Shown here in pieces: positions 28,176 through 63,759 of a stretch of DNA of 64,000 nt; position 1 is the stretch's first letter, and each line of letters opens with the position of its first letter. The notes under the pieces were generated by a model. That model searched no databases. It was not told the DNA's origin and saw only the letters and a list, made by a program, of their open reading frames with translations. Both the position numbers and the translations under genes were made by a program. The stretch is from NCBI GenBank assembly GCA_015146655.1, contig VKHL01000037.1, forward strand, positions 124,001 through 188,000, written 5' to 3'. The stretch comes from Ochromonas danica (Eukaryota; Sar; Chrysophyceae; Chromulinales; Chromulinaceae).

Positions 28176-31100
28176 ATGGCACTCTTCGGAGAAACTCTCG
28201 CTAATTGCTCATCTGAGCTTCTCCAAAACTCCGAACATTTTTCAGAGCTGAAATCAAAACTCAAACTGAAAATCAAGAACTTGGCTGGGTCGGCGAGCTG
28301 GTATGATTTTCTCGTTTCCGCACAACAAGACCCTGATTTGAGGGATAGAACAATTTCTGCTCTCATCTGCCCAGGGAAAAAGAAGGAAAGCACGGAGCAG
28401 TGCTTACTCTTTTGGAAAGGTTTTTTCCTGTCAGTGTGGGAAAAGAACTCCTCCAACATGGCTGGGGTTTGCGCTTCACTCAAACTGCAACCACCCACAG
28501 GCTGGCTCGACAATGATGGTAATATTGCCGATATGGCTCTGAATGCCGTTATCTCCTTGGACTTTCTTATCAGCGTGTTCTATGGAGACATGCAATCTCT
28601 GCTCGATGAAATCAGGTCCTCCACAACGCTCTTATCGAATCTCCTTCCAGGCTACAGTTCGAATGCAATGGATCAAGAAATCGAGGTATGGCATGAATCT
28701 ACTCCTTTTTCTTTTGCTCATCTATATGCTTCATAAATGGTGCTGTAGGAGGAAGAAGCACCAGCTCTTGGCCTTCCTTCCATTCTTCCCAACGTCAGCC
28801 AAGGGCCAGGGCTGTCTAAGTGGTACCCAAGAGATGATTATTGTATACAAATAATCACAGGAAACTTATTATCTAGAGACTTTCTCAGCAAAGAAAAGCC
28901 GCAAGCCATAGTAAATGCTGCCAATTCGGCCTTACTTCATGGGGGTGGGATTGCAGCTGCCATTAGCAGAGCTGCTGGCAGGCAACTTGATGAAGAGTGT
29001 CGAAAATGGAAAGAATGCTGGAAGTCGGTCGTGATGCTGCCGTGACCACCGCAGGTTATATTCCTGGAGTCCTCAAAGTAATTCACGTGGTTGGGCCTCA
29101 AATCCAAGAGGGTGTGCGACCCAATGAAGCTCAATGAAAGGACCTCTTTAATGCAGTGACAGCAGCCCTAAATGCTGTTGTCGGTAGAAACCTCTCTTCG
29201 GTTGCCTTTCCTGCCATTTCAACGGGTATCTACAACTTTCCTATGGATGAAGCGGTGGCTATTATGGTTGAAGCGGCATCTCGATTTGGCATAGAGAATT
29301 CCGCGATCTCCTTGCAGGTGTATTTTGTTCTTCTTGATGAACAGAGTAGTCAGATGTTCAAGAACGCTTTGGGTGCTTTGGATCTTTCTAAGCAAGGCTC
29401 ATTTGCGCCATCAGTTCGCATTAGAAACAACAACAAAAAGCTGCTAAAATCAGGCAGGGAAGATACCACTCAACCGCCTAACAATGAGACTAGACTATTG
29501 AAGTCTAATGAAATCATCAGGGATTATAAAGCCGCCGGTGTCGTTTTGTACACTGTAAGATCCGGTGAATTGAATATTCTGCTTGGCCTGGAAGATCGAA
29601 TCGGTGAGGGATTAGTGCTCAATGTGCTTGGTGGGAGAGCAGAGCCTCGAGACCAAGACTATCGTCACACCGCAGCTAGAGAATTTCACGAAGAAAGCAA
29701 ATCCCCGGTCAGTGAGAAGGTCCTGAAAAGAATGCTGGCATCAGAGCAGGCAACTGCTATTTACTTCGATAAGGGGCAATATGTTCTTTATCTGGTTGAT
29801 TGCCTGCCAGAGCTTGAGAAATTAGATGTCTCGTTCCAACAATCAAGTCGCCATAGCGAGATGGATAAACTCCTTTGGGTCAAGTGGAAAACTCTTTTAG
29901 AGGGCTCCAAAAAGCAACCTCCTCATATCACCATGCGTTCCTGGAGGAGAGTGGTAGACTACAACATCTCTGAGTTTCTTCAAAAACTCCTGAATTGTCC
30001 TCTAATACTTGATATTGTAGAAAGAAGGGCATGCCAAACTGCTACATCAAATATGCAATCTGAGTTTGACTCTCTCTTGAGAGAATCATGGGATCCTTTT
30101 CCCGAAGACGATAAAGAATGGAGACTTCGATTGGCTTTTCCTCCGTCAGTTTCCACCTCTTTCCCCATCATACCTCTCGAGCGCAACAGCGCAGAATACC
30201 AAGCCGTATCGCAGCGATTTAGTAGCTCTCCTCCAATTATCACCATTCGCAAAGTGAACTGTGAAGTGAGAGAGGCTGAACACGATAAATTGGTCCAAGA
30301 GCTTCAAAAGCAGAATGGAAGTGATAAAGTTCATAAAATTGAGCCTGTGTTTCATGGGACACCTGAGCGTTGGAGAGCGACTAATATTGCTCTAAAAGGC
30401 TTTGATCTTTCCATTGTTAGGAATGGAAGATCTTCCGGGAATGGTGTATACACGGCAACTGACATCCAAACCCCTCTTGGATATAGTAATAATCAGGGCA
30501 GCATTTTGCAGATGAAAGCGATACTCGCCCCAAACGACCACGGTTATCAAGCTGAAATGAAAGGACCTCCATTCACACCAGGGACTATTCTTGTCTTCCG
30601 TCAAGCAGCTCAGGTGCTACCTCGTTACGTGATCGACTTTGCGTCACCTGGGCAGGATGATGCTGCTCTTGAGAAGAAAGCTAAAGAACAGCATTTACAC
30701 GATGCAGCAGTAGCTAGAGAAGAGATGGAGAGACAGCAGCGATTGATACAAAGCATGGAGGATCAATATGCCGCGGAACGCATCCGAAATTCGCAGTCTT
30801 CAAGTAACTATTTCAAACAACGCATTGAGACTTACCAAAAGGATTTCCAAGATACTACTGAGAATGACCAGATGGCATGGAACAAGGTTGAGAAGATTAT
30901 GCGTTTGGTGGATATCGAATGCAGGCAATTTAGAAATGGCGCGCCTCTTCCTATCTACTATCGCAAACATAGTCTTATCAAGACTATTCGAGAGAATGAC
31001 GTTATTCTTGTAAGCTCTTCAACTGGTTCGGGCAAAAGCACTCAACTACCTCAATACATCCTAGATGATATTTTAGAACCTTGCAATGACCACAGGCGTG

Positions 31101-34100
31101 TGGCGGTATTAGAGCCAAAGCGATTTAACGCTATTACTCTCTGTCAACGAGTAGCAAAGGAGAGGTCTCAGCAAGTGGGCAACGAAATCGGCTACAGTTT
31201 AGGTCAAGGAGATTGTTGTGCCAGTGCAGTAACGCGAATCGAATACATGACACACGGCTTGTTTATCAATCGGGCACTCAACTCCAAAAAGTTATTGTCT
31301 GTTTATGGAGCAGTTATTCTCGATGAAGCACACGTTCGCTCTGTGGAAGTTGACCTCTGCTTCAAGTTACTTCTCAATGCCTTGAAATATAGCAAACAAG
31401 AAGGAGGAAGGTCTTTCAAGATCATCATTGCCAGTGCAACTCTTGGTGATAGGGAGATGGGTCTATATCTGAACTATTTCAAGGAAAGTATTCCTCTCTG
31501 CAGGGCAACTACTTGTGATGCATCCGGTCAGCAGTGCTTTCCTGTTCTCACCGTGCATAGAGCAGAAGCAGAGCCTGATTGGGAAGAGGCCAACAGTTTG
31601 GAGACAACCAAAGCGTTGGCAGTGCATGCTGTAGAGATTGCACTGCAGCTCATTAGAGCTTCCGACGAAGGTAACATTCTTATCTTCATGCCTGGCGAGA
31701 GTATTATCAATACTTGCCTAGCAAATATCCAGAATTGGGTTCTATTCAAAACCAAATCACAACCGACTGCAAAGCAAGGAATTCCTTGGAATAATAGCTT
31801 GGATTTTGAGTTCAAGCTAACCATAGACTCAGACGGTGGCAAAGAAAAGAAAAAAGTTATTGGAGTGTATCCTTTCCACGGAAAAGTGAGTGCGAGGTTA
31901 AGACAAAAGATGCTCTTCCACAAGGGTCAAGATCGAATCATCATTTTCTCCACCAACATAGCGGAGACAGGAATCACATTACCAAACATACGATATGTCA
32001 TTGACACTGGCTTAGAGCGTAGAGTTATTTGGAATCCAACATCTGGTATTCAAGAAATGAAAACGATGAAAGTCACTGCATCTTCCATGAAACAGCGTCT
32101 TGGCCGAGCTGGTCGCGTTGCCTCAGGTATCTGTGTTCGGTTGTACTCAGAAGATACCGCTAAATCTCTTGATGAGGAAATTCAGCCAGAGATCAAAAAT
32201 GGAATGATTCTGCGCCTGGTTTTAACAATGAAGCAGCTGGCGAAGCAAGGAGATGACGGCAAGCTTTTGACAGAGGTTCCTCCAACATCCTGGGAGTCTG
32301 CAGAGAAGATGTTGCAACTGCTTGAAGCTTTGGATGAAAACAAAGAACTGAATTCCGTTGGTCAAGCTTTGCTCACTTTGGGCCTTGATCTACGGATGGG
32401 ACGATTTCTAATTGCTTGTAATTCTGCTGGTTGTCTAGGTAGCGGCATCTTGATTACTGCCATGGTCACCCTGTCCAATAAATTGGACTTCTTGCCGTTG
32501 AAAACTGTTGGTAATTATGCTGCAAAGGAGTTTTTGGATCCTAATGGCGATCACTTTACTCTGATGGCTATTTTTCAGGCCTATCTTGGCGCCAAGAACA
32601 AAAATTCGTTCTGTTCAGACTATGACCTCGATCCAAATGTTATGGAAGAAGCCAAGCGCTCGAAAGAACATCTAGAAATGATCTGCCTAAAGATGGGATG
32701 GAGACAAATGGATCGCAAGAATGCAAAACCAGAAGACATCCGCAAGGCTTTGCGAGAAAGCCTTTGTGCCGCTTTCTTTGACCAAATAATCAATGCCATA
32801 GTGCCCGGATCTCCTGCCAAGAAATTCATTCGCATTCTCCCAAAGCAAGAATCACAACGCTTTCGTAGTAGCATGAAGAGCTTCTTGGATAGTGCAGGGT
32901 TGGGTGACAGAGAAATGCAGGGAAACTCTCCTCAGAGCTTTCTCGTCAGCAGCGGTGCATTGAAAGCTAAGTCTACACAAGATGAAGGCAACGCTGATGA
33001 TGATTACGATGACGACAATTATGATGGAAGTGACGCTTCATCTCAGGGTAGCATTTATTCCGCGAACACGAATATCACACCAACTTTGTCACCAGCTGTT
33101 CCTTCCCAACAAAAGCAACAAACGTTGACTCTCACCCAACAATCTTCTTTGTGGTTGCTTGCAGAGCAGCAAACAGCAACACCTCTCAGCTTGGCTGTCT
33201 TCACCTCGATCATGATAACCGACTCAGCTCGCGAGCCAGTTATTCATTTAGTTTCTTACATCGATGCAGATGATGTTGTAAACGGAGCGAAACAATGGAG
33301 TGAAAAGATAAACTTTGGCAAAATTTATCGCAAAATCAAGCCTATCACTAGACGCTACCCAATCTCTTCCCAGCTTGCTAAATATCTTCTTCTTCAGAAA
33401 GGCTCAGCGATGCGAAAATACTTTTCAACGTATGATTTAGTTGATACAAAAGTTGACAAGGACAAGAAGGAACTCATTGTAACAGCACCACAACATATTC
33501 TGGAATACTTCAATAACAAGATAAAGGAATTGGAGGAAGAAACTGATCGAGAAGAGTTTTGCCTGCCGCTTCCTTCGCTTACTAATACTGAAGACAAGAC
33601 CAAAATAATAAAGCTATTTGGAAGAGGCAAAGCAAAGAATGAAGAGAAAGAACATCTCGTGAATGACTTGAACAAAATGGTTCTGGATGCATTGGGGGAT
33701 CAAGGAGATTATCTTCCTCTCCAACTGAATGATGTTGGAGTTGACAATACGTCTTCCCCTTGGATGATTACGGTCCGAGTCAGTGGATCTGGCAAACAGC
33801 TAAGCAGTCTCATGTTGGGTCATATTCACAGTCTTATTGCGCAAACGCTCCGGCAACAACCCACTCAATCCTTTGACTCCGTGCAAATTAAGAATGCCTC
33901 CTCCACAGCCATACTGAGCAAGTCCAACAACTTTTTGCCAAATCTAGCATTATTTTCGACATCAGTCCCGCCAGTAGCGCCTTTTAATCACAAGAACAAA
34001 GCCATGGTATTTCTAGCTCACGAGGCTATTTGGAACGCTAATTGCAAAATATATGGCGGCTTCGTGCGCGATTTCATCATTCGCAATGAAGTAGCTAATG

Positions 34101-34645
34101 ATATCGACATTGCATATGATTCCAGAACTCAATCACTGTCACAAATTCAGCTTATTATCATTTCAGCTGCCAATAAAATCGGCCTGCGGTGCACAGACAA
34201 TTGGCGCCAGAAAGGTATGGCGCAATCCCGGCGATTCATATTGGGCAACCAATTGGGTGGATCTTCCTTTGAAGTGGATTTGGTCGACCAAAACGTGGTG
34301 AGTAGTCAAGGTCTATCTCCAGGAGTTGACTGTGATGTGGGCAACTTTATTGTGCAGAAGCCTGGTCATCAACAATTTGGTCTGCAGCTCAAGGTGAATC
34401 ATCCGATGCTCCAGACAGTCCACCAAAGCATCCGACATTGCCTGGCAAAGGAGTTTGTCTTCTATTATGATCAAAACAATCCGATTGGCCAAGCACGATT
34501 GCAGAAATATCTCCAGAGAGGATGGAAGTGTCTGACAAAGTTGCAGCCAGTTATGCAGACGTGGGCAACAAGCGCAGGCTATGCCAATCTCCTTGCTCCT
34601 CAGAAACAATACTCCAAACCTTATTACAACCTGGTTAATAGGTAA
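28176..34645 (+). CDS. Macro - Nudix - ADP-ribosyltransferase (PARP-like) - DEAH helicase - nucleotidyltransferase fusion protein
   Basis: A giant multidomain gene. Exon 1 (28176-28685) and the start of exon 2 (from 28749) encode a helical N-terminus of unknown fold and then half of a macro domain (IVNAANSALLHGGGIAAAI), the fold that binds or hydrolyses ADP-ribose. The second half (GRDAAVTTAGYIPGVLK... AFPAISTGIYNFP) lies in another frame. From 29243, the first ATG of a frame open to 34645, come four further parts. A Nudix-like domain has a box near 29630-29700 (GGRAEP...AAREFHEES). A PARP-like transferase follows at about 30340-30560 (VFHGTP, GNGVYTATD, GSILQMKAIL). An RHA/DEAH helicase has SSTGSGKST, ILDEAH, SATL, NIAETGITLP and QRLGRAGR. 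The C-terminus holds a GGFVRD...NDIDI motif as in CCA-adding nucleotidyltransferases. There is one intron in 6.5 kb. An ADP-ribose cycle acting on RNA is my inference. Domain calls are by motif only. Confidence 0.8.
29000..29137 (+). other. Frame interruption inside the macro domain of the fusion gene
   Basis: The first macro half reads in one frame up to a stop at 29043-29045. The conserved second half starts in another frame at about 29006, next to a run of A, and meets an in-frame TGA at 29135-29137 before continuing open. An intron cannot explain this, since the conserved strand lies between the breaks. It is either recent decay of this domain, sequence error, or two separate genes. Confidence 0.6.
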
Positions 34646-46714: not shown

Positions 46715-47912
46715 ATGTTCAGCTCCAGTCGAGCCGCTCGGACCCTTCATATAGTTGGCAAGCGATCCGCAAGTAGTGGTTCCTTGCTCTATGCTCCTCG
46801 ATTGGGTTTAGGGGGCAGACAGACCAACTACAGTAATATCACTGTCACAGTCTTCGGCAGCTATGGCTTTGTCGGCAGATATGTGATGGGCGAGCTGGGT
46901 AATTATTATTGATCCTTTTCGCCGTGAAGATGTCTCTGTTTCTTATGTGTTGTGTAATTTTCTTTGCTCAGGAGCGTGCGGTACTCGGGTCTACGCTCCT
47001 TTCCGCGGCGACGAGCTGGAGGTGCGCCACCTCAAGCCCATGTTTGACTTGGGACAGCTGGGTCTACTTCCTTTCAGCCCGCGTGACAAAGATTCTATCG
47101 TGGAGAGCCTTCGCAACAGCGACGTGGTGATCAACCTCATCGGCAAGCACTACGAGACGAAGAATCCCTTGCCCACCCTGCGCGAGAATGGCGAGTACTC
47201 TCGAGTCAACTACAGCTTCGAGGAGGCAAACGTCACTATTGCTGAAACTCTGGCTACTCTGGCTAAGGAGGCTGGTGCGAAGGCCTTCATCCAGGTCTCG
47301 GCAGTGAGCGCCGACAAGGACTCCGCCTCTGCTTGGTCGCGCTCCAAGGCAGCAGCCGAAGTGGCCGTTAGGAAGCAGTTTCCTGAAGCCGTCATTGTCA
47401 AGTTAGCAACCGTGTTTGGTGCTGAAGATCGCTTCTTGAATTGGATTGCTGAGTTCTCCTCTCGCTCGCTCTTCTTCCCTTTGATCAACGGGGGCCGCAA
47501 TCTCGTGCAACCTGTCTACGCTGGTGATGTCGGCAAGGGAATTCTGGAGATCGTTAAGAATTACAATGATGTCGCTGGTCAGACTTTCCAGTTTGTTGGT
47601 CCTGCTGAATACTCTCGCAAGGAGGTGGCTGAGTACGTGCAGGATGTCACTCGCTTGGGCAGGCCTCTTGTCGATGTGCCCGTCTCCTGGGCTCGAAGAA
47701 CTGCCAAGATCACGGAGCATTTCATCTCTCCTTTCTGGACTGAGGATTTCGTGGATTTGTTGCTCGAAGATGCGGTCAAGCTGAATGATCCTTCCCTCAA
47801 GACTCTCCAGGACTTGGGCGTTGAAGCCCGCAGTATGGACTCCCTCGCCTTCGACTACTTGCATCGCTTCAGAAAGGGAGGTCACTTTACTGTCGTTAAG
47901 GGTTACCATTGA
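46715..47912 (+). CDS. NDUFA9: Mitochondrial complex I subunit NDUFA9 (atypical SDR)
   Basis: Accessory subunit of NADH:ubiquinone oxidoreductase near the hinge of the two arms, with a bound NADPH. Exons 46715-46898 and 46972-47912 (73-nt intron, phase 1), 374 aa. The chosen ATG starts a good mitochondrial presequence (MFSSSRAARTLHIVGKRSAS). The NAD(P)-binding motif VTVFGSYGFVGRYVM is split from RVYAPFRGDE by the intron. Conserved further on are DVVINLIGKHYETKN, NVTIAETLATLAKEAG and VKLATVFGAEDRFLNW. In-frame ATGs upstream (46637) would lengthen the leader. Length and motifs match NDUFA9 well. Confidence 0.92.
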
Positions 47913-48072
47913 ACGCCTTCCATTAATACCACCCCTGTGTAAGTTAGTTACTGTAATTCCAAATTGGAAATGGAATTGTCACCGAAACTCTCTGTTGTTC
48001 CCACGCACCATAACAATAACTCTCAAACACCATTTGTTTGTTATTGTCATCGCACTTTGTTTCTCGCTGAGA

Positions 48073-51000
48073 ATGCCAACCAACGCCGATTTGATCAAGC
48101 AATTCCAGCAATATGACTTAGTTCCAATGGATTCAGACGAGGAACCCGGGCGGAGCAAAAGAGAGAAGAAGAAGTCCAAGAAGGCTGAGACGAAGAAGGC
48201 CAAGTATCGAGAGAGAAAGTTGGATGACGCCTCAGACGACGAAGGTGCTGTTATCGTGACCAAGACGAAGCGGATGAAAGAGAGCTCTGTGGGAAAGGGT
48301 GGAGAGGAGGAGAAGGAGGAGGAGGAGATGGACCGCGATATCGCCGCCAGAAATGATTTTGTCTCTCGCATGCTTGAGCGAGACGAAAAGCGAACGAAGA
48401 AGGGCCCTGAGGGATTGAGTGCCGAGCAGTTGCAGGAGTTTGCAATGCGCGGCCGTGTGAGTGGGGCGGCGGGGAAGGCGGAGGAGGTCTCAGCGCTGCG
48501 CGACCTCTCCAGACAGCTCTACCTCGAGAAACGAGAGGAAAAGGAGCTGAAGCTGCTGGAGAGAGGGATGAAAGAAGAGAAGGAGCTCTTCGATAACGAG
48601 CGCCTGTCGAAGGAGGAGCGACGGCGGCTGCGCCTCAACGAGAAGATCTTGAGCATGGCCACTGACAAGCACCGCTTCTCCTACAAGGACGACCACTACC
48701 ACATCCCCGATGGATATGAAGATGAGCATGGAAGAGTGAACAAGAAGAAGAAGGAATCGGTGCTGACACGGCGCTATGAAGAGGAGGAGGTAGTGCGGAC
48801 GGAGCAGGAGGTGTGGGAGGAAGGCCAGCTCAAGGTCGCCAAGGCGGCTGCGGCTCGTGACAAACTTCGAGGAAAGGGCGATCAAGATGACTATGAGTTT
48901 GTTTTTGAGGACCAAGTAGACTTTATCTCTGCTGAGATCTTGCGCAACGCGACGGCCCAGGAGCTACCGCACCAAGGAAAGGAATCGATCGATCGGCCTG
49001 AAGATATCGAAGAGGAGGAAGTCGTCAAAAAGCCTCTCACAGCTCACGAGCGCATTCTAGAAGGAAGAAAGAAACTCCCTGTTTTCGCCTATCGAGAAGC
49101 CTTTCTGCAGGCAGTGCGCGACAACAAAGTCCTCGTCGTCGTGGGTGAGACGGTGAGTGCTTTTGGATTGTTTTCGTTGCTTTTCCACTCTGATGTGTTT
49201 TTAACCGACGATTCAAATGCATTTGTGACGACAGGGCTCTGGTAAAACTACGCAAATCCCTCAGTATTTGCATGAGGCGGGGTGGTCTCAGCTGGGGCGT
49301 ATCGGGTGCACACAGCCGCGCCGAGTCGCCGCAATGTCCGTAGCAGCCCGAGTCGCTCAGGAGATGGATGTCAAACTTGGTGCTGAGGTTGGATATAGCA
49401 TTCGCTTCGAAGACTGTACGTCAGAGAACACGGTCATCAAGTACATGACGGATGGCATGCTTTTGCGCGAATTTCTCAATGAGCCGGACCTCGCGTCTTA
49501 CTCGATCATGATGATCGACGAGGCGCATGAACGAACTCTCCACACAGATGTTCTTTTTGGCCTCGTCAAAGATATCTCTCGCTTTCGCGAGGAAGATTTC
49601 CGTTTGATCATATCCAGCGCGACACTTGATGCGGAGAAGTTCTCCAAGTACTTTGACGACGCCTCCATTTTTATGATTCCTGGCCGCATGTTTCCTGTGG
49701 AAGTCTTCTACACCAAAGCTCCCGAAGCAGACTACCTTGATGCAGCTGTTGTTTCTATCTTGCAGATTCACATCACTCAGGAGTTGCCGGGAGACATTTT
49801 GCTCTTCCTCACAGGCCAAGAAGAGATCGAAGCAGCCGTCGAGATCCTCACTCAACGTACGAAGGGCCTGGGGTCAAAGATCAAGGAATTAGTCATTTGT
49901 CCTATTTATGCCAACCTTCCCAGCGAAATGCAAGCCAAGATATTCGAGGCTGCTCCTTCTGGCGCAAGAAAAGTTGTGATCGGCACGAATATCGCGGAAA
50001 CCTCTCTCACAATTGATGGCATCTGCTACGTCATCGATCCTGGCTTTTGCAAACAAAAGTCATACAATCCTCGCACTGGAATGGAGTCTTTAATAGTAAC
50101 ACCCATCTCGAAGGCTGCAGCCAATCAGAGATCTGGTCGAGCAGGTCGCACCCAAGCAGGCAAGTGCTTCCGTCTCTACACCGCCTGGTCCTATCAAAAT
50201 GAGTTGGAAGACAACACTGTTCCGGAAATTCAGCGCACAAATATGGGCAATGTGGTTCTCATGCTCAAGTCGTTAGGAATTAACGACCTGCTCAATTTCG
50301 ACTTCATGGATAAACCTCCTCCAGAAGCTCTCATGCGGGCTTTGGAGCAACTTTATGCTCTCGGAGCGCTGAATGATCGTGGTGAGCTCACGAAGATGGG
50401 CCGGAGAATGGCTGAGTTTCCTCTTGATCCCATGATGTCCAAGGCCGTGCTGGCCTCAGAGCGCTATCTCTGCACTGCCGAAGTACTCACCATTGTCTCG
50501 ATGCTCTCCATAGGATCCTCAGTCTTTTATCGACCCAAAGACCGTGCTATTCATGCTGATAATGCCAAACAGAACTTCGCTCGAGGAGGTGGAGGAGATC
50601 ACGGTGCCTTGCTTCGTTGTTTCTCTGACTGGGTGGAGACAGGCTATTCGACTCAATGGTGCTATGAAAACTATGTTCAGGTGCGCAATATGAACAAGGC
50701 AAGAGATATTCGTGAGCAATTAGAGGGTTTATGCGAGCGAGTGGAGCTGGAGCTGGTTTCCAATCCACACGACATGGACAACATCCTCAAAGCTCTCACT
50801 GCTGGCTACTTCTATCATGCGGCACGCTTCGCAAATAACGGAGAATACAAAACTATCAAAACTCCTCACACTGTCCATATTCATCCATCATCGGTACTGG
50901 CAAGCAAAGCTGAGAAAGCCGAGCCCCCACGCTTCCTGCTCTACCACGAGCTGGCGTTCACTTCCAAGGAATACATGCGTACGGTGGCACCCATCCAGCC

Positions 51001-51115
51001 AACATGGCTCACAGAAGTAGCTCCGCATTATTACAAGACAGCAGACTTCGAGCAAGCCGAAGGTAAAAAGCTACCCAAGGCTGTTGGAAAGGCTTCAGCA
51101 CCCACTGAAGAGTAA
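48073..51115 (+). CDS. DHX16: Spliceosomal DEAH-box ATPase Prp2/DHX16
   Basis: RNA-dependent ATPase that remodels the activated spliceosome before the first splicing step. Exons 48073-49152 and 49235-51115 split the P-loop codons: GET at the end of exon 1 and [12 protein letters not shown] at the start of exon 2 (82-nt intron, phase 0). The protein is 986 aa. Residues 1-290 are highly charged and Lys/Glu-rich, as in DHX16. Helicase motifs are [42 protein letters not shown] and [14 protein letters not shown]. The C-terminal HA2 and OB parts are complete. [15 protein letters not shown] and [14 protein letters not shown], together with the charged N-terminus, favour DHX16/Prp2 over DHX8/Prp22 (no S1 domain) and DHX15. 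Confidence 0.92.
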
Positions 51116-57005: not shown

Positions 57006-60000
57006 CTAAACTACAGTTAGAAGGAGTTCGTATTCTTGATCGCATCCAATGTAGCTATCACAGATTAGATAGAGATTAAGGTTATAATCTCCCGGAGATT
57101 CAGGAGCGGTAAACTCCAGCACGGCCTGCAACACATTCAAAGCGAGCAATTAAAAGCAATAAATACAATCATCAGTTAAATTCTCACCTTAAACTCCACA
57201 TTAGCGACAAATCGCTTGACCGAGTAAAGAATATTTGACGAAGGATCGCCGACCACAATCCACCAGGCCTCTTTCTTTGTGAAGGGATACTGTGCGCTGA
57301 CAACTGTTGGATCAAACGCCGCGTCATCCTGGCTATCTCTTGTGCAAGTCACAGTAATGGAAATGGTTTCCTCGGCTGAGACGGTTGCATCGTAAGAGGT
57401 ACTGTAGGAGACCTGCATCACAGGATAGGCATTGCAAAACAAAGCTATTTCGGATAGCTGAGAGGGCGAGAACGCGAGAAGCTTCTCTCTCTCATCATCT
57501 TCCATGTCCAAGAGATCAAAAACAGTCTCCACGGGCGGATCACATACTTGCAGCCTTTTCACCAGATCAACAGAAAAATGGGGAATTTGCATCAAAGTTG
57601 GGTCAGAAACCTTCATGCCCTGTACAATGCATTGGGAGACTTCCATGGCCGCCAAGGCGGGCTTGAGCCAACCTTGAGATGAAATTACATCCACCAAAGC
57701 TTGGACCAACAGTACACCTTGCTTTAGGATCTGCAGTTGATCCACTCGAAGCTCACCGTTAGCTGGCACGCGATTGAACTGACTGTGTAAGAGCAATAGC
57801 GCTTTTTTCATTCTAATATCTGCACCAGCATTCTCCCAATTGGGGGCAAAATCCATTCCAAGACTCCCTGCCAAAGCTGATAGCAACTGCTCTTCTCCTA
57901 ACCGCAAAGGCTGAGACACTTCATTTACAGCGGCCAGAATCTCCGTGATTGCTTTGAACTTCGACTTACTGGTCACACTTGAAGAGAACAGTTCCACTGT
58001 AGTATAGGATACGCTATAAAAGGCGGCTATCATGCCCAGATTGAGAGGACTGAGATCCATGTCATTTTCCACAGCCAAACATTTGCTCTCTTCCAAATCA
58101 TTCACAGCAGATTCGATCAATTCTGAAAGATGATCGGAAAGTTGATGATGCCCTGCAGAACTGAGATTATAGTAGTTTGGATTTTGAGCTAGGCGTCGAT
58201 AATAAAAAGTCCACGTCAGGAAATCCACAGCATCCGCTTTGGAAGTAATGGTCTGCGAGACTACCTCAGCATTGAGAAAATCATGCAAAGCATGGTCCAT
58301 ATGACTTTCGAGAGGGACAAGATCGTGCAGAAAAGTTCTTAGCCGCTCCTTGCGAGAAGAGTGACAGAAAATTGCACACTTCCCACGCGTATCGGCATGC
58401 CCGGCTCTTGAGACCATTTGCCAGATTTCGTTCACGCGAAGATCAACAAAACGATCACTTGCGCCATCATACACAACAGTATCCAAAATCAGGACAGTAG
58501 GCGCCCAAGTCGAAATCTTGAAAGCCATTGAATAAGGAATAATAAGAACTTTGAAACCATTGTTGGAGAACAGAGTTTCCAACACATTCATGTCCACCTT
58601 TTCCATGCTGTCATAAAGATATCCTACACCATACTCCAAGGTTTGAGCAAGAGCTTTGTCTTGGAATGGAGAGCTCTCTAGACCAAGTTCCTTCAAAGAC
58701 GACTTAAAATGTTCCTCTTTACCAGTAGCTTCCACCTGAGTGATAATATCAATAGCAAGCATCTGCGCATGTTTACGAGAAGGGGCAAAAACCAGAGTAC
58801 GCTCCCCAGATAGGACTGCGCTAATGATCATTCTAAGAGCAGGTTTTTGCACCGCTTGCAAGCGATTACTGTAGTCGATTTCATCTACTCCATGAATTCG
58901 CACATCCAGAGAAAAAGGTCTAGCATTCGGAGGGAAATTAAAGACGGCACTTGAAGCAGCGCCAATAACATCTCCTACATCTTTGGCGTTCGCGATGCAG
59001 TAAGATAGTCCCACAATACGAGCAGAATTCTGTAGTTGAGTAATCATAAATCGCGTCCGAGCTAGAGCAATCTCTAGGCAGGCTCCGCCTTCGCTCCCAA
59101 TCGAGTGCAAATCATCGAACACAAATAGCTGGATTGTACGAAAGATCTTCCTCTGTCTCCATTTCCTGCTCAAAGACTCCCAAACTGAAGGGGAAGAAAT
59201 GACTACTTGAGCACTTTTCATCAATTCTAGATCTCTCAATTGGTCTCCTTCCAACAAAGCCACAGAAACCGACAGTTTTTGAAATCTGTGGCACCAATCC
59301 TTATAGCGAACCTCAGCTTGATCCTGATTACAAGGAATATAAATTATCTTCCCAGGGCCGAGAGATAGTGCTCTGAGAATCGCCAACTCGCCGCATAACG
59401 TTTTTCCAGATCCATGTGGAGCACAGACCAGCACATTTGCGTCATTTTCGTACAATGCGATGTAGCACTGTGTCTGTACAGGATTCAAATATTGGATAGG
59501 AGCAAAGAAGTCAGAAATATCAGAATTTTTCAAAGAGGCAATAGGCAAGGCTTGGAGATCAAGCAACTCGGAAGGAGGTGGGAACTTCGGAGGCAAAACC
59601 AACCTCCTAAATGAAACAGGCGCACAGACCGTAGAGTGCAGCCAGCGATCAGCCATCACAGTTATAAAGTAATGTGGAGGTCTGGGCTCAAACAAAGGCA
59701 CAGTGAAGTCTAGAAAGTATTCCGCAGTTCTTGATCGAACCATGATGGGCTCTGAATATAGAATATGTTCACGATCTGCATCTTCCACAAAAAGCCAGAA
59801 CAGCATAGCTCGTCCATGAATCTGATCGTTTAACTCGAAGTCTAACTCAGATGTAACTTCGAAACGCAATAATGAGCGACTGAGTGGATAAACATTAACA
59901 TTGAGCTTCAGCTTTGGGATCATATGCACGAACTTGTGCAGCGTTTTGCCCATCTTTGGGATCTTAACTAACTCACCCAAATCTTGAGGAGAAAGGTCGG

Positions 60001-63000
60001 CATACTTGTCCCACGAAATTGTGCTAATCTTCTCCAGCTTGCGAGAAATTACATCAGGAATAGCAGCGAATTGTCTCAAGCTGCACTGTGATTTCCACAT
60101 CCTTCTTTCCGTCATGATGCAGAGCTCTAACAAACGTACAGCTAAAGCTGCCCATTCCTTCTTCAAGGCTATCTCAAATAAAGCTCTCAAAATACGGCAA
60201 GCTGATTGTTGGATGTATTGCATATCTGCCAAAAGAGCAAACCCCTGTTCAGCGAAGGAAAAGTTACACACGTGTGATGCAACAATCCATGACAACTATT
60301 CTATATTTTCTTACCTCCAATTTTAGCCGCGAAATATAAGCTTGAAGCAAGACATTGATTTTAGCTGAAGGCTCTTCCACGGACTCCTTGATGGGAATCG
60401 GCACGCGATAAATCAGGCTTCTCAACTCAATCTTTTCCTCGTCTCGTACATGGATGTGTTTAAACTCAGCAGATAAGCTAAATAGTCTGAACACCTCTAC
60501 TTCATTCATAGAGGAACGCAAATTCTCATTGTAGAGAGCAAGACTCTCCGCGGTGATATAGTAGTAACTAGCAATTTTGCCGAGGTAGGAAGAAGCCACA
60601 GCACCAGTCCTTCGATCATATTTTGCCAAGCCAGTTTTATCCAAACTCACAAGGGCAGCGTGAGCAAAATTGCTTCTAGCACGAATAAAGGTGGGATCAT
60701 TGGCGATATCATCCTCCGAGCAACCATACATGAGTGGCCGTCGCAACATGCGAACAAAGAAATAAGAATAACCCAACCATTCAACCGCTTCATCCAAAGA
60801 AGATACAGTACCTAATACTATTTCTGCGTTCAGTATGTCTGGAAGGCGACTGACGAGATGGCTCTCAATGGGCAACTGTTGATTCATGAGAGATAGGTAA
60901 TACTGCAGCTCGGAATGATCAGTGATGATTATTCCTTCACCTTCCGAATCTAGACCATATCTCCCTGCTCTACCCATCATTTGAAGGATATCTAAGGGAG
61001 ATAATTCGGTCCATCTGCCTAAGTTAGGGGAGTACATTTGAGTGCCTTTGATGATTACTGTTCGACAAGGCAGGTTCACGCCCCATGCAAGTGTCGCCGT
61101 CGAAATTAAAACTTTGATGTGTTTGTCTGCAAACAAATCTTCCACCAACGTACGATCCGACCTTGCAAGACCTGCATGGTGCACGGCAAAGCCATACGAA
61201 AGAAGTTCCTTGAGATCTGCATTCTTGGCATTGCCTGCTTCAACCTTAAGAATCTCGTGAGATGCACTACCTTCTTGAAGAAAGCGCGACAGAGTATCAT
61301 TATCGGCTGCCATATCTCTCAAAGCCCTAGCAGTCTTCACTGTATCGGCGCGAGAGTGAGTAAAGATCAGCAGCTGGTTTTTGGTTCCATGAACCAAGGC
61401 CTTCTCATAGCAGATTTCATTCATCAATTGAACTCTTTTTAACGCTTTCTTCTCCATAACACCAATGAATTGCTGTTGGAGAGGAACTGGTCGATAGCTG
61501 TTGTCGAAAAAGTGTAAATCCTGAGGTTTGACATGTAGGAAGGCTGCAACGTCTTTATAATTGGGCAAAGTTGCAGATAGACCAACCAATCGAACAGGAG
61601 AATGCGTAGACTCTGCATTTCTAATCATGCGGGCAACCAAAGCCTCTAACACAGGGCCGCGATCGTCATGCAACAGATGTACTTCATCGATGATAACCAA
61701 TCGCACCACCTGAGCAAAACTCCTCTCAGTCACTTTACGAGTGACAATATCCCATTTCTCTGGGGTAGTCACGATAACTTGAGTATCAACGATCTCCTGT
61801 CTACTAAGACTCTGATCTCCAGAGAGCTCTCGAACTTGCATGTTGAGGGGTGCAAGGCGTTTGCCAAATGTCAGTACACACTCCTGCACCAGAGCCTTCA
61901 TAGGAGCAATGTACACAATTTTAAAATCCTTTGTGTTGATTTTCCCATCAGCTCCTCGAAAGCGATTGATCATACCCATCATACAAAGCAACGCGACATT
62001 GGTTTTGCCTGATCCCGTGGGAGCACATAGCAACATATTGTCTTCTCCATACAAAGCGGATCCCAACAGTTTAGATTGGACGCGGTTAAAATTTCTAATA
62101 CCTTCAAAAACAGGTTGCATCCAATCTGGCAAGTCGGTCACCTGTTCGAGCTTCTCTCCTTCCACAACAGCAGGCTTGAGGGCTGGAACGTGCACCTCCT
62201 CAAAGCCTTTTTTCTGCGCACGCCAGCTTTGTTCTGGCAAAGTGCAACGTGTGTTGCTCATCAAGTGACTGCCAGCAGAGAATGAATAATCATCTAGTTT
62301 GATTGTTTTATTAACTTGCTGTAGGGCTGAAGCACGACCTCCGACTGCAGCACCATCTTCATCTTCTTCAGTCATCACATTAAGATTCTTGGAGGAACTA
62401 GATACATTCTGGGAAGTAGGGCCTTTGTTGCTGCTGTCGTTAGACTTTTCATGAACCCATCCTCCAGCAGAAACCTTTTGGTTCAGCAGTGCCAGTATGC
62501 CTTGCGCTTCTCCACCTGCTTGTTGCATTTCTTCCTCTACACGCCTCCTCTCTTCAGCACTTTGAGCTTGCTTAAGTTTGATACAATAATATATCTTGGC
62601 CCGATTGCGCAGAAGAAATTTGATGAGATCAAACTTGTCAAAGTCCAGCAGAACAACGAGTTGGTTTTCACAAAGACGCTCATCTGCAGTAGCTAAGATA
62701 GCCAGAGCTTCCTCGGCTAAGCGAGAAGAAATAGTTGCCTCACTATAGTACTTGGACAGCTGTCTTTGCAACCAATAGGCATCAATATCATGCACATTAA
62801 TATCGGTCTGCAGGGAGGTGGAGGTTTGAGCGACAGCCACATCGCCACGGCCCTGTAATCGCGCATGCTCCTCCTCCATGACCACATCTCTTGAATCTTC
62901 TTCATCATCATCATCATCTTCATCATCTAACATGGCAGCAATATCATCATCGTCGTCGTCGAAAACAACAGCCATCTCTTCATCCACGGGGCGATCGCTT

Positions 63001-63563
63001 TGAACAGGCTGTGCTTGCACCTCATCTACGAAATCGGTCACCTTGCGGCTGATGGAAGTCAATTTAGACAATGAATTTAACTGTTGTCCAGTCAATTGCC
63101 GTATCTCGGACAGTTTTTGAGCCTCAGATAGGGAGGCATTCTTTAGCACAGTGAGCACTTCAGTGGTAGCGCTCACCAGAATGTCATGAGGCTGGTCTCC
63201 AACTATAGACCTGACTTCAACCAGCATTTCTTCAAATGCAGCACGGGTTTCCGCGGATTTTGGAACATAAGACAAGGTGGAATCGGTCTCCGGCAACTCC
63301 AATTTCGCTCTTGCCACTCGATGGGTTCCATCTTCATTCGACAGCCTAGCCTTCTTAGAAGGAGGGCGAGAAAAATCTTCTTCAGACCTAGTTATGCCTT
63401 GCAAGCGATCGCCCATTTTGAAAGTTCCAAGTTTTCCTCTCAAGCTCTCAACTTCACCTTTGCCCGCCTCGCGATTGCGGCGTCCGTCTCGCTCCGCCTC
63501 CAAGACCAAGTTCGAATTGGCACCATACTCATAGAGTTTGCTACGTAAAAACTCATCGGCCAT
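57006..63563 (-). CDS. BRR2: U5 snRNP helicase Brr2 / SNRNP200
   Basis: Ski2-like helicase that unwinds U4/U6 to activate the spliceosome. Three exons on the minus strand: 60315-63563, 57188-60244 and 57006-57125 (introns 70 and 62 nt), 2141 aa, the normal size. The N-terminal plug-like region is acidic. Cassette 1 has [35 protein letters not shown] and QMMGRAGR, so it is intact. The first Sec63 unit follows, with the intron falling in [18 protein letters not shown]. Cassette 2 keeps CAPHGSGKT but has VFDDLHSIG at motif II and [10 protein letters not shown] at motif VI, consistent with the known inactive C-terminal cassette. The last exon supplies the end of the second Sec63 unit ([23 protein letters not shown]). 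Confidence 0.96.
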
Positions 63564-63759
63564 GGTATAGATTACTGCAGGTCAGGATTCCTGTAAACTC
63601 TGAATGGGAAGCCTTGGCCATCCGCTCATAGCCCAGAGCAGAAAACGCGCTTTCGAACAAACGCGTTTCCACAGTTCCACTGACTTGAAACCGTTGTTTG
63701 AGGCGAGCAATCGATTCTTTCACTTTCTGGCGTGATTGGTAATATGTCTCTCTGAAAAG

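Follow-up and report, generated by a model that had tools for sequence, protein, structure and literature searches.

A PARP-type transferase, a DEAH helicase and a nucleotidyltransferase-type head in one open reading frame of Ochromonas danica, with a recurring order in other eukaryotes

Can one protein of a chrysophyte join an ADP-ribosyltransferase to an RNA helicase and a nucleotidyltransferase, and if so, what would it do with them? The question is raised by a locus of Ochromonas danica lying in a stretch of 64,000 nucleotides of contig VKHL01000037.1 (the window), where the initial annotation had placed a single gene with macro, Nudix, PARP-like, DEAH helicase and CCA-type nucleotidyltransferase modules at positions 28176-34645. 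We found there an uninterrupted open reading frame (ORF) of 1835 codons, in which a Nudix domain, a PARP-type transferase, a complete DEAH helicase, a KH-like region and the head of a CCA/poly(A)-type nucleotidyltransferase (NTase) follow one another; the KH-like region is an addition to the earlier list of modules. The same order recurs in other eukaryotes. We give an even chance to the view that these proteins form a eukaryotic family, undescribed as far as we could find, of RNA-directed mono-ADP-ribosyltransferase machines with a helicase and an NTase head. The locus is laid out as follows.

28176-28685, forward strand: possible exon 1 (170 aa), from reading of the sequence, without recognisable domain
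28686-28748, forward strand: probable intron, 63 nt, GT-AG, likewise from reading
28749-29266, forward strand: macro domain, disrupted, Pfam Macro in three pieces
29138-34645, forward strand: uninterrupted ORF, 1835 aa; gene model P0001 starts at 29243, on the first ATG downstream of the TGA
29531-29896, forward strand: Nudix domain, LGGRAE at 29627 and REFHEE at 29678; Pfam NUDIX at 9e-4, under the cut-off
30188-30637, forward strand: PARP-type ADP-ribosyltransferase, placed by the family profile against PARP12; C-terminal limit from the alignment
30353, 30449 and 30482, forward strand: PARP residues His406, Tyr438 and Tyr449 by alignment; tentative third triad position Ile484 at 30587
30941-32791, forward strand: DEAH RNA helicase, GSGKST at 31025, DEAH at 31322, SAT at 31433, QRLGRAGR at 32093
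33320-33862, forward strand: KH-like region from profile A2, boundaries approximate, GxxG-type loop degenerate (FGRG)
34040-34642, forward strand: CCA/poly(A)-polymerase-type NTase head, GG at 34055, DID at 34100-34108, third Asp at 34277

The frame has a counterpart in the database. P0001, a separate entry of 1800 aa under the name Ochromonas danica, was 100% identical over the searched part of the ORF, and its full length corresponds to ORF residues 36-1835 except for two residues; since these two differ from the window, P0001 may derive from a separate assembly. The ORF aligned with another protein, P0002, at 30% identity over 1846 columns, far above chance. An NCBIfam search of the N- and C-terminal parts gave no match.

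Is this architecture peculiar to O. danica? The initial annotation had suggested looking for the same domain order elsewhere, and the order, which we call class A, was present in at least 11 proteins with an N-terminal half, O. danica included, plus a twelfth that is truncated (P0013, which begins inside the PARP domain). The other members are P0002, P0005, P0006, P0007, P0008, P0009, P0010, P0015, P0016 and P0017; P0009 belongs to Aphanomyces stellatus and P0016 to the unclassified Eukaryota sp. TZLM3-RCL. Each search for relatives scored 7999 candidates, and the counts are lower bounds. With ORF residues 1-560 as query, at least four proteins were obtained at E <= 0.001: P0001, two macro-PARP proteins of animals (one carries the name PARP14-like) and P0002, the last at 1.5e-33. 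The C-terminal part of P0002 retrieved at least 11 rows, itself among them, and the profile search at least 18 rows at E <= 1e-60, six with the class A architecture and 12 from other helicases. The PARP HGT, P-loop, DEAH, GGxVRD-type and DxD motifs are present in all 11 class A members that have the N-terminal half. In P0002, P0005 and P0006 a KH match below the cut-off occupies the N-terminus in place of macro. That a chrysophyte, an oomycete and strain TZLM3-RCL all have this arrangement argues for a function.

Three further proteins, P0011, P0012 (A. stellatus) and P0014, form class B, in which a DEAH helicase is combined with a PARP-like domain, two WWE stretches over the cut-off and the C-terminal NTase shared with class A. 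Finger and RBR-like stretches can be assigned to them with less confidence: P0011 gave CCCH matches and P0012 an IBR match at 0.0018, all below the cut-off, and the remainder was assigned by reading. A. stellatus thus has one protein of each class. In a helicase tree of 17 rows, a 100/100 branch divides ten class A proteins from the three of class B, which share their side with an RBR helicase and three more sequences, two of these being identical in the tree. The NTase tree (15 rows) did not separate the two classes, 8 of its 12 inner branches being open. The simplest reading of these sequences is that the PARP and NTase domains travel together with two helicase lineages.

Does O. danica have class B as well? 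With P0014 as query, its genome gave matches to helicases, to the helicase and NTase of the ORF and to C72:127525-127914, and no PARP or WWE match. The last place lies outside the window within an 880-aa helicase frame (C72:125824-127914, reverse strand) and corresponds to the finger region of P0014; this frame is possibly a finger-DEAH helicase without PARP.

The PARP homology of the family is firm at the level of sequence. The profile of 12 rows (A6, nine class A and three class B) matched PARP12 (2.4e-14), PARP14 (1.7e-10), PARP10 (3e-10) and ZAP/PARP13 (1.8e-9), while class A rows alone (A3) matched tankyrase-1 (5.8e-6) and PARP12 (8.8e-5). All 12 rows matched Pfam PF00644 with E no higher than 1; a scan of the whole genome (31.2 Mb, 337 contigs) with this model was uninformative, none of its controls giving a match. 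No row of A6 departs from the His of HGT, the Tyr of the GVY-type motif or the second Tyr, and the catalytic His and Tyr were found in 14 of the 15 proteins, P0013 being without the region. The tentative third triad position is occupied by Ile in O. danica and, among the ten other class A members, by Val in nine and Trp in one, never by Glu, the residue of poly-ADP-ribosylating PARPs; the aligned residue of PARP12 is Ile. Glu therefore seems absent, which suggests mono-ADP-ribosylation, and this is what would be predicted if the alignment is right and the enzyme active.

At the other end of the protein, the GG, RD, DxD and third Asp of the NTase are invariant in the 12 rows of alignment A5 (nine class A and three class B, from 15 proteins), the third Asp of P0014 requiring a gap. 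PolyA_pol was found in nine of these rows at E up to 1, at best 0.0038. A profile search of PDB gave three weak matches: a polynucleotide adenylyltransferase at 0.13, a protein related to tRNA nucleotidyltransferases at 0.76 and, at 0.81, an unrelated protein. The first two, like the GGxVRD and DxD head motifs, are shared with CCA-adding enzymes and poly(A) polymerases. Unlike these, the O. danica protein has no neck, body and tail, the parts that follow the head in such enzymes, and ends 197 residues past the NTase motif; PGVDxDxxN also stands in place of their RRDF-type motif. Since the NTase domain lies at the protein end, this is not a standard CCA-adding enzyme. DUF5769 was weakly matched by three of the 12 NTase rows, at best 0.026.

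Between the two lies the helicase. Here the initial annotation was right in reading a complete helicase core: DEAD and Helicase_C exceed their Pfam cut-offs, motifs I, II (DEAH), III and VI are present with both RecA-like domains, and Prp43/DHX chains were matched at about 1e-55. The HrpA model matched the relative P0016 at 2.1e-66, under its own cut-off. As in Prp43/DHX15 and relatives, the core carries all four motifs; in contrast to them, class A helicases lie beyond the 100/100 branch and have added enzyme and binding modules. The KH-like region was matched through profile A2 to the KH domains of IGF2BP3 (7.7e-4) and vigilin (0.0026), and the loop IGKGG is present in 5 of 12 class A proteins, the O. 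danica protein not being among them. Plant DEAH11 and DEAH12 combine DEAH, RBR and KH parts, and weak KH_DEAH11 matches in P0002 (0.03) and P0006 (0.17) recall them; we know of no PARP or NTase in these plant proteins. Elsewhere in the window, another DEAH helicase gene, apparently split by an intron, lies at 47785-51115 (forward strand) and matches the helicase part of the ORF. Two large overlapping ORFs at 57176-63581 (reverse strand) resemble, by reading, one Brr2-type helicase gene cut by a short intron.

The Nudix module is more variable. Pfam Nudix was found at E < 0.01 in 9 of 11 class A members (not in P0007 and P0010) and over the cut-off in five. The box REx2EE, present in the window protein as REFHEE, is retained in nine. 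The domain is degenerate in P0007 and was not detected in P0010, although both keep the PARP, helicase and NTase motifs, so that Nudix is not essential to the family. With the class A profile the nearest Nudix was NUDT7, an enzyme associated with CoA (0.0092), and ADP-ribose pyrophosphatase was weaker (0.26).

What, then, of the macro module and of the single gene proposed at first? All of the domain is there in the sequence, without a single reading frame: Pfam Macro positions 1-34 are in 28749-29018, positions 44-74 in 29021-29134 and positions 77-118 from 29138, three consecutive pieces. The first two pieces (29018 to 29021) are separated by a change of frame and the last two by an in-frame TGA at 29135-29137; therefore 28176-34645 is not one open gene in the assembly, and only its larger part, 29138-34645, is open. 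Upstream, an exon at 28176-28685 followed by the 63-nt intron remains plausible as a part of the gene. The exon gave no credible Pfam match and no credible match to the N-termini of nine relatives. The single intron of the initial annotation is probable, and the macro frame is still broken behind it.

Splicing as a rescue of this frame was considered and judged unlikely. Open frames were given by 24 of 397 single-intron models and 1150 of 23049 two-intron models; the best scored 216, as against 235 when the three pieces were linked by X, and needed introns of 32 nt (GC-AG) and 27 nt. Among the models listed with GT-AG throughout, the best reached 213, its introns being 26 and 27 nt long, less than half the length of the probable 63-nt intron. 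Since rescue scores low and P0001 begins after the TGA, the macro domain was probably lost in O. danica by mutation, or is misassembled. In the case of loss, a functional protein would start near 29243 and have Nudix as its first domain. A six-frame Pfam Macro scan of the whole genome, unspliced, so that spliced genes could escape it, matched only this broken locus; 8 of 14 control genomes matched. Of the 11 class A members that cover the region, two (P0009 and P0010) possess an intact domain and O. danica a broken one, and in eight none was detected; the domain is hence optional. The motif NAANSALLHGGGIA in O. danica, like the motif in P0009 and P0010, is without the GGGVD Asp of MacroD-type hydrolases; because it is missing, the intact domains of P0009 and P0010 may be readers rather than erasers.

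Could the lesions be errors of the assembly, so that a full macro-containing protein is made? This side question does not touch the mechanism. There are just two lesions within about 120 nt, and the relatives P0009 and P0010 have the domain intact, but P0001, with its two different residues and perhaps from a separate assembly, likewise starts right after the TGA. We consider assembly error less probable than loss.

How would such a protein work? In the mechanism that we favor, RNA would be supplied by the DEAH helicase with its KH-like RNA-binding modules, and its ends would be modified by two enzymes, both presumably active. The one upstream would be a mono-ADP-ribosyltransferase of PARP10/12/14 type, and the C-terminal one a CCA/poly(A)-type nucleotidyltransferase. 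Trimming or reading of the ADP-ribose mark would fall to Nudix and macro in those members that have these optional modules. Action on RNA is most simply read from the joining of a helicase and an NTase-like head to such a transferase. The presumed substrates, RNA ends, follow the example of PARP10, 11, 14, 15 and TRPT1, and the role may be surveillance or tagging of foreign or damaged RNA, with an antiviral or quality-control use.

There are precedents for the chemistry. PARP10, 11, 15 and TRPT1 attach ADP-ribose in a reversible way to phosphorylated ends of RNA (PMC6582358), and the phosphate-end ADP-ribose is removed by macrodomain and ARH-like hydrolases (PMC11833690). PARP14 has three macro domains along with eight predicted KH domains; RNA is bound by its KH fragments, and the catalytic fragment acts on RNA or DNA with a terminal phosphate (PMC10450202). 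The proposed reaction is like that of TRPT1 and PARP10, which are separate proteins, whereas in O. danica transferase, motor and NTase-like head are fused. The O. danica family shares with human PARP14, PARP10 and PARP12 the PARP homology with its His and Tyr, and with PARP14 also KH and macro modules. To our knowledge, none of these three human proteins has a DEAH helicase, Nudix or NTase.

Several points weigh against this mechanism. PARPs of the PARP10/12/14 type are best known for modifying proteins. Taken by itself, the window PARP has 20.2 bits versus the PF00644 cut-off of 26.7, clear as it becomes in the family profile, and the third triad strand aligns to PARP12 at 7.2 bits, a weak C-terminal alignment. 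The window Nudix falls just under its cut-off (19.7 versus 21.1 bits), and the Nudix residues are gone in 2 of 11 members. For the NTase, the assignment rests on the invariant motifs; profile support is weak, PolyA_pol giving 0.076 in the ORF scan and 0.0089 in the scan of NTase rows, both under the cut-off. The helicase tree was built without P0015 and P0016 and with few outside helicases. Of the modules named at first, the Nudix, the PARP-like transferase and the helicase are kept, and the NTase head is kept on its motifs. The initial idea of self-contained ADP-ribosylation and reversal survives in its first half, the RNA-directed enzyme being the best-supported reading; the reversal is weakened by the scarcity of intact macro domains and the incomplete retention of the Nudix box. 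The antiviral use and the rebuilding of 3' ends proposed with it are conjectural.

The strongest competitor is a sensor of RNA, in which the helicase and KH-like parts detect unusual RNA and the PARP mono-ADP-ribosylates proteins or itself, not RNA, as in PARP12/13/14-type antiviral factors. The presence of PARP12, PARP14, PARP10 and ZAP/PARP13 among the profile matches agrees with it, as do the WWE stretches and, more weakly, the finger and IBR matches of class B, which are found in protein-signalling PARPs; it leaves the invariant NTase-type carboxylates and the Nudix unexplained, and we regard it as distinctly less probable than action on RNA. Less probable again is an editor of RNA 5'-end caps in general RNA turnover, where Nudix would strip NAD-, CoA- or ADP-ribose-type ends, PARP would ADP-ribosylate phosphate ends and the NTase would extend 3' ends. 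The nearness of NUDT7 and the common retention of REx2EE speak for such an editor, but P0007 and P0010 can do without an intact Nudix, and a sequence cannot reveal the Nudix substrate. That the whole locus is a pseudogene is very improbable, for in spite of the frame change, the TGA and the start of P0001 beyond it, 1835 downstream codons are fully open with catalytic motifs retained, and a macro domain is likewise undetectable in 8 of the 10 relatives that cover the region.

Where did the gene come from? It had been called AT-richer than its neighbours and perhaps horizontally acquired. Its GC (0.442) and its GC at third codon positions (0.432) are indeed the lowest of 15 window ORFs, but by small steps without a clear gap (the next GC is 0.450; the other 14 ORFs have 0.438-0.625 at third positions), and horizontal origin on the ground of composition was rejected. 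Looked for in viral contigs and a prokaryote genome set, the KH-NTase part gave seven viral and 53 genome pattern matches, none of which codes for a related protein, a limited test because only two short peptide patterns were used; nothing was found in support of transfer from a virus or prokaryote.

In the open-access literature, judged by titles and the beginnings of abstracts, we too recognised no description of a protein with this domain set, so that "undescribed" is provisional; the protein is a member of a family and not a single oddity. The words "helicase" and "nudix" occur nowhere in the main text, as available to us, of a 2010 survey of eukaryotic PARPs (PMC2964712).

Work on RNA ADP-ribosylation has so far dealt mostly with enzymes that are separate proteins, and little is known of what the modification naturally targets. 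It is tempting, if still rather unlikely in this full form, to see here a widespread undescribed protist system, in which one polypeptide would move along RNA, ADP-ribosylate its end and extend the 3' end, and would also process the mark where Nudix or macro is present, as self-contained RNA-end tagging probably directed against foreign RNA, with PARP and NTase coupled to two different DEAH helicases. Because the layout recurs in other eukaryotic microbes, the O. danica protein gives the impression of an RNA-modifying machine that has escaped study, not of an isolated case, and its fusion of an RNA motor, a mono-ADP-ribosyltransferase-like domain and an RNA-type NTase head makes the hypothesis of an RNA substrate directly testable.

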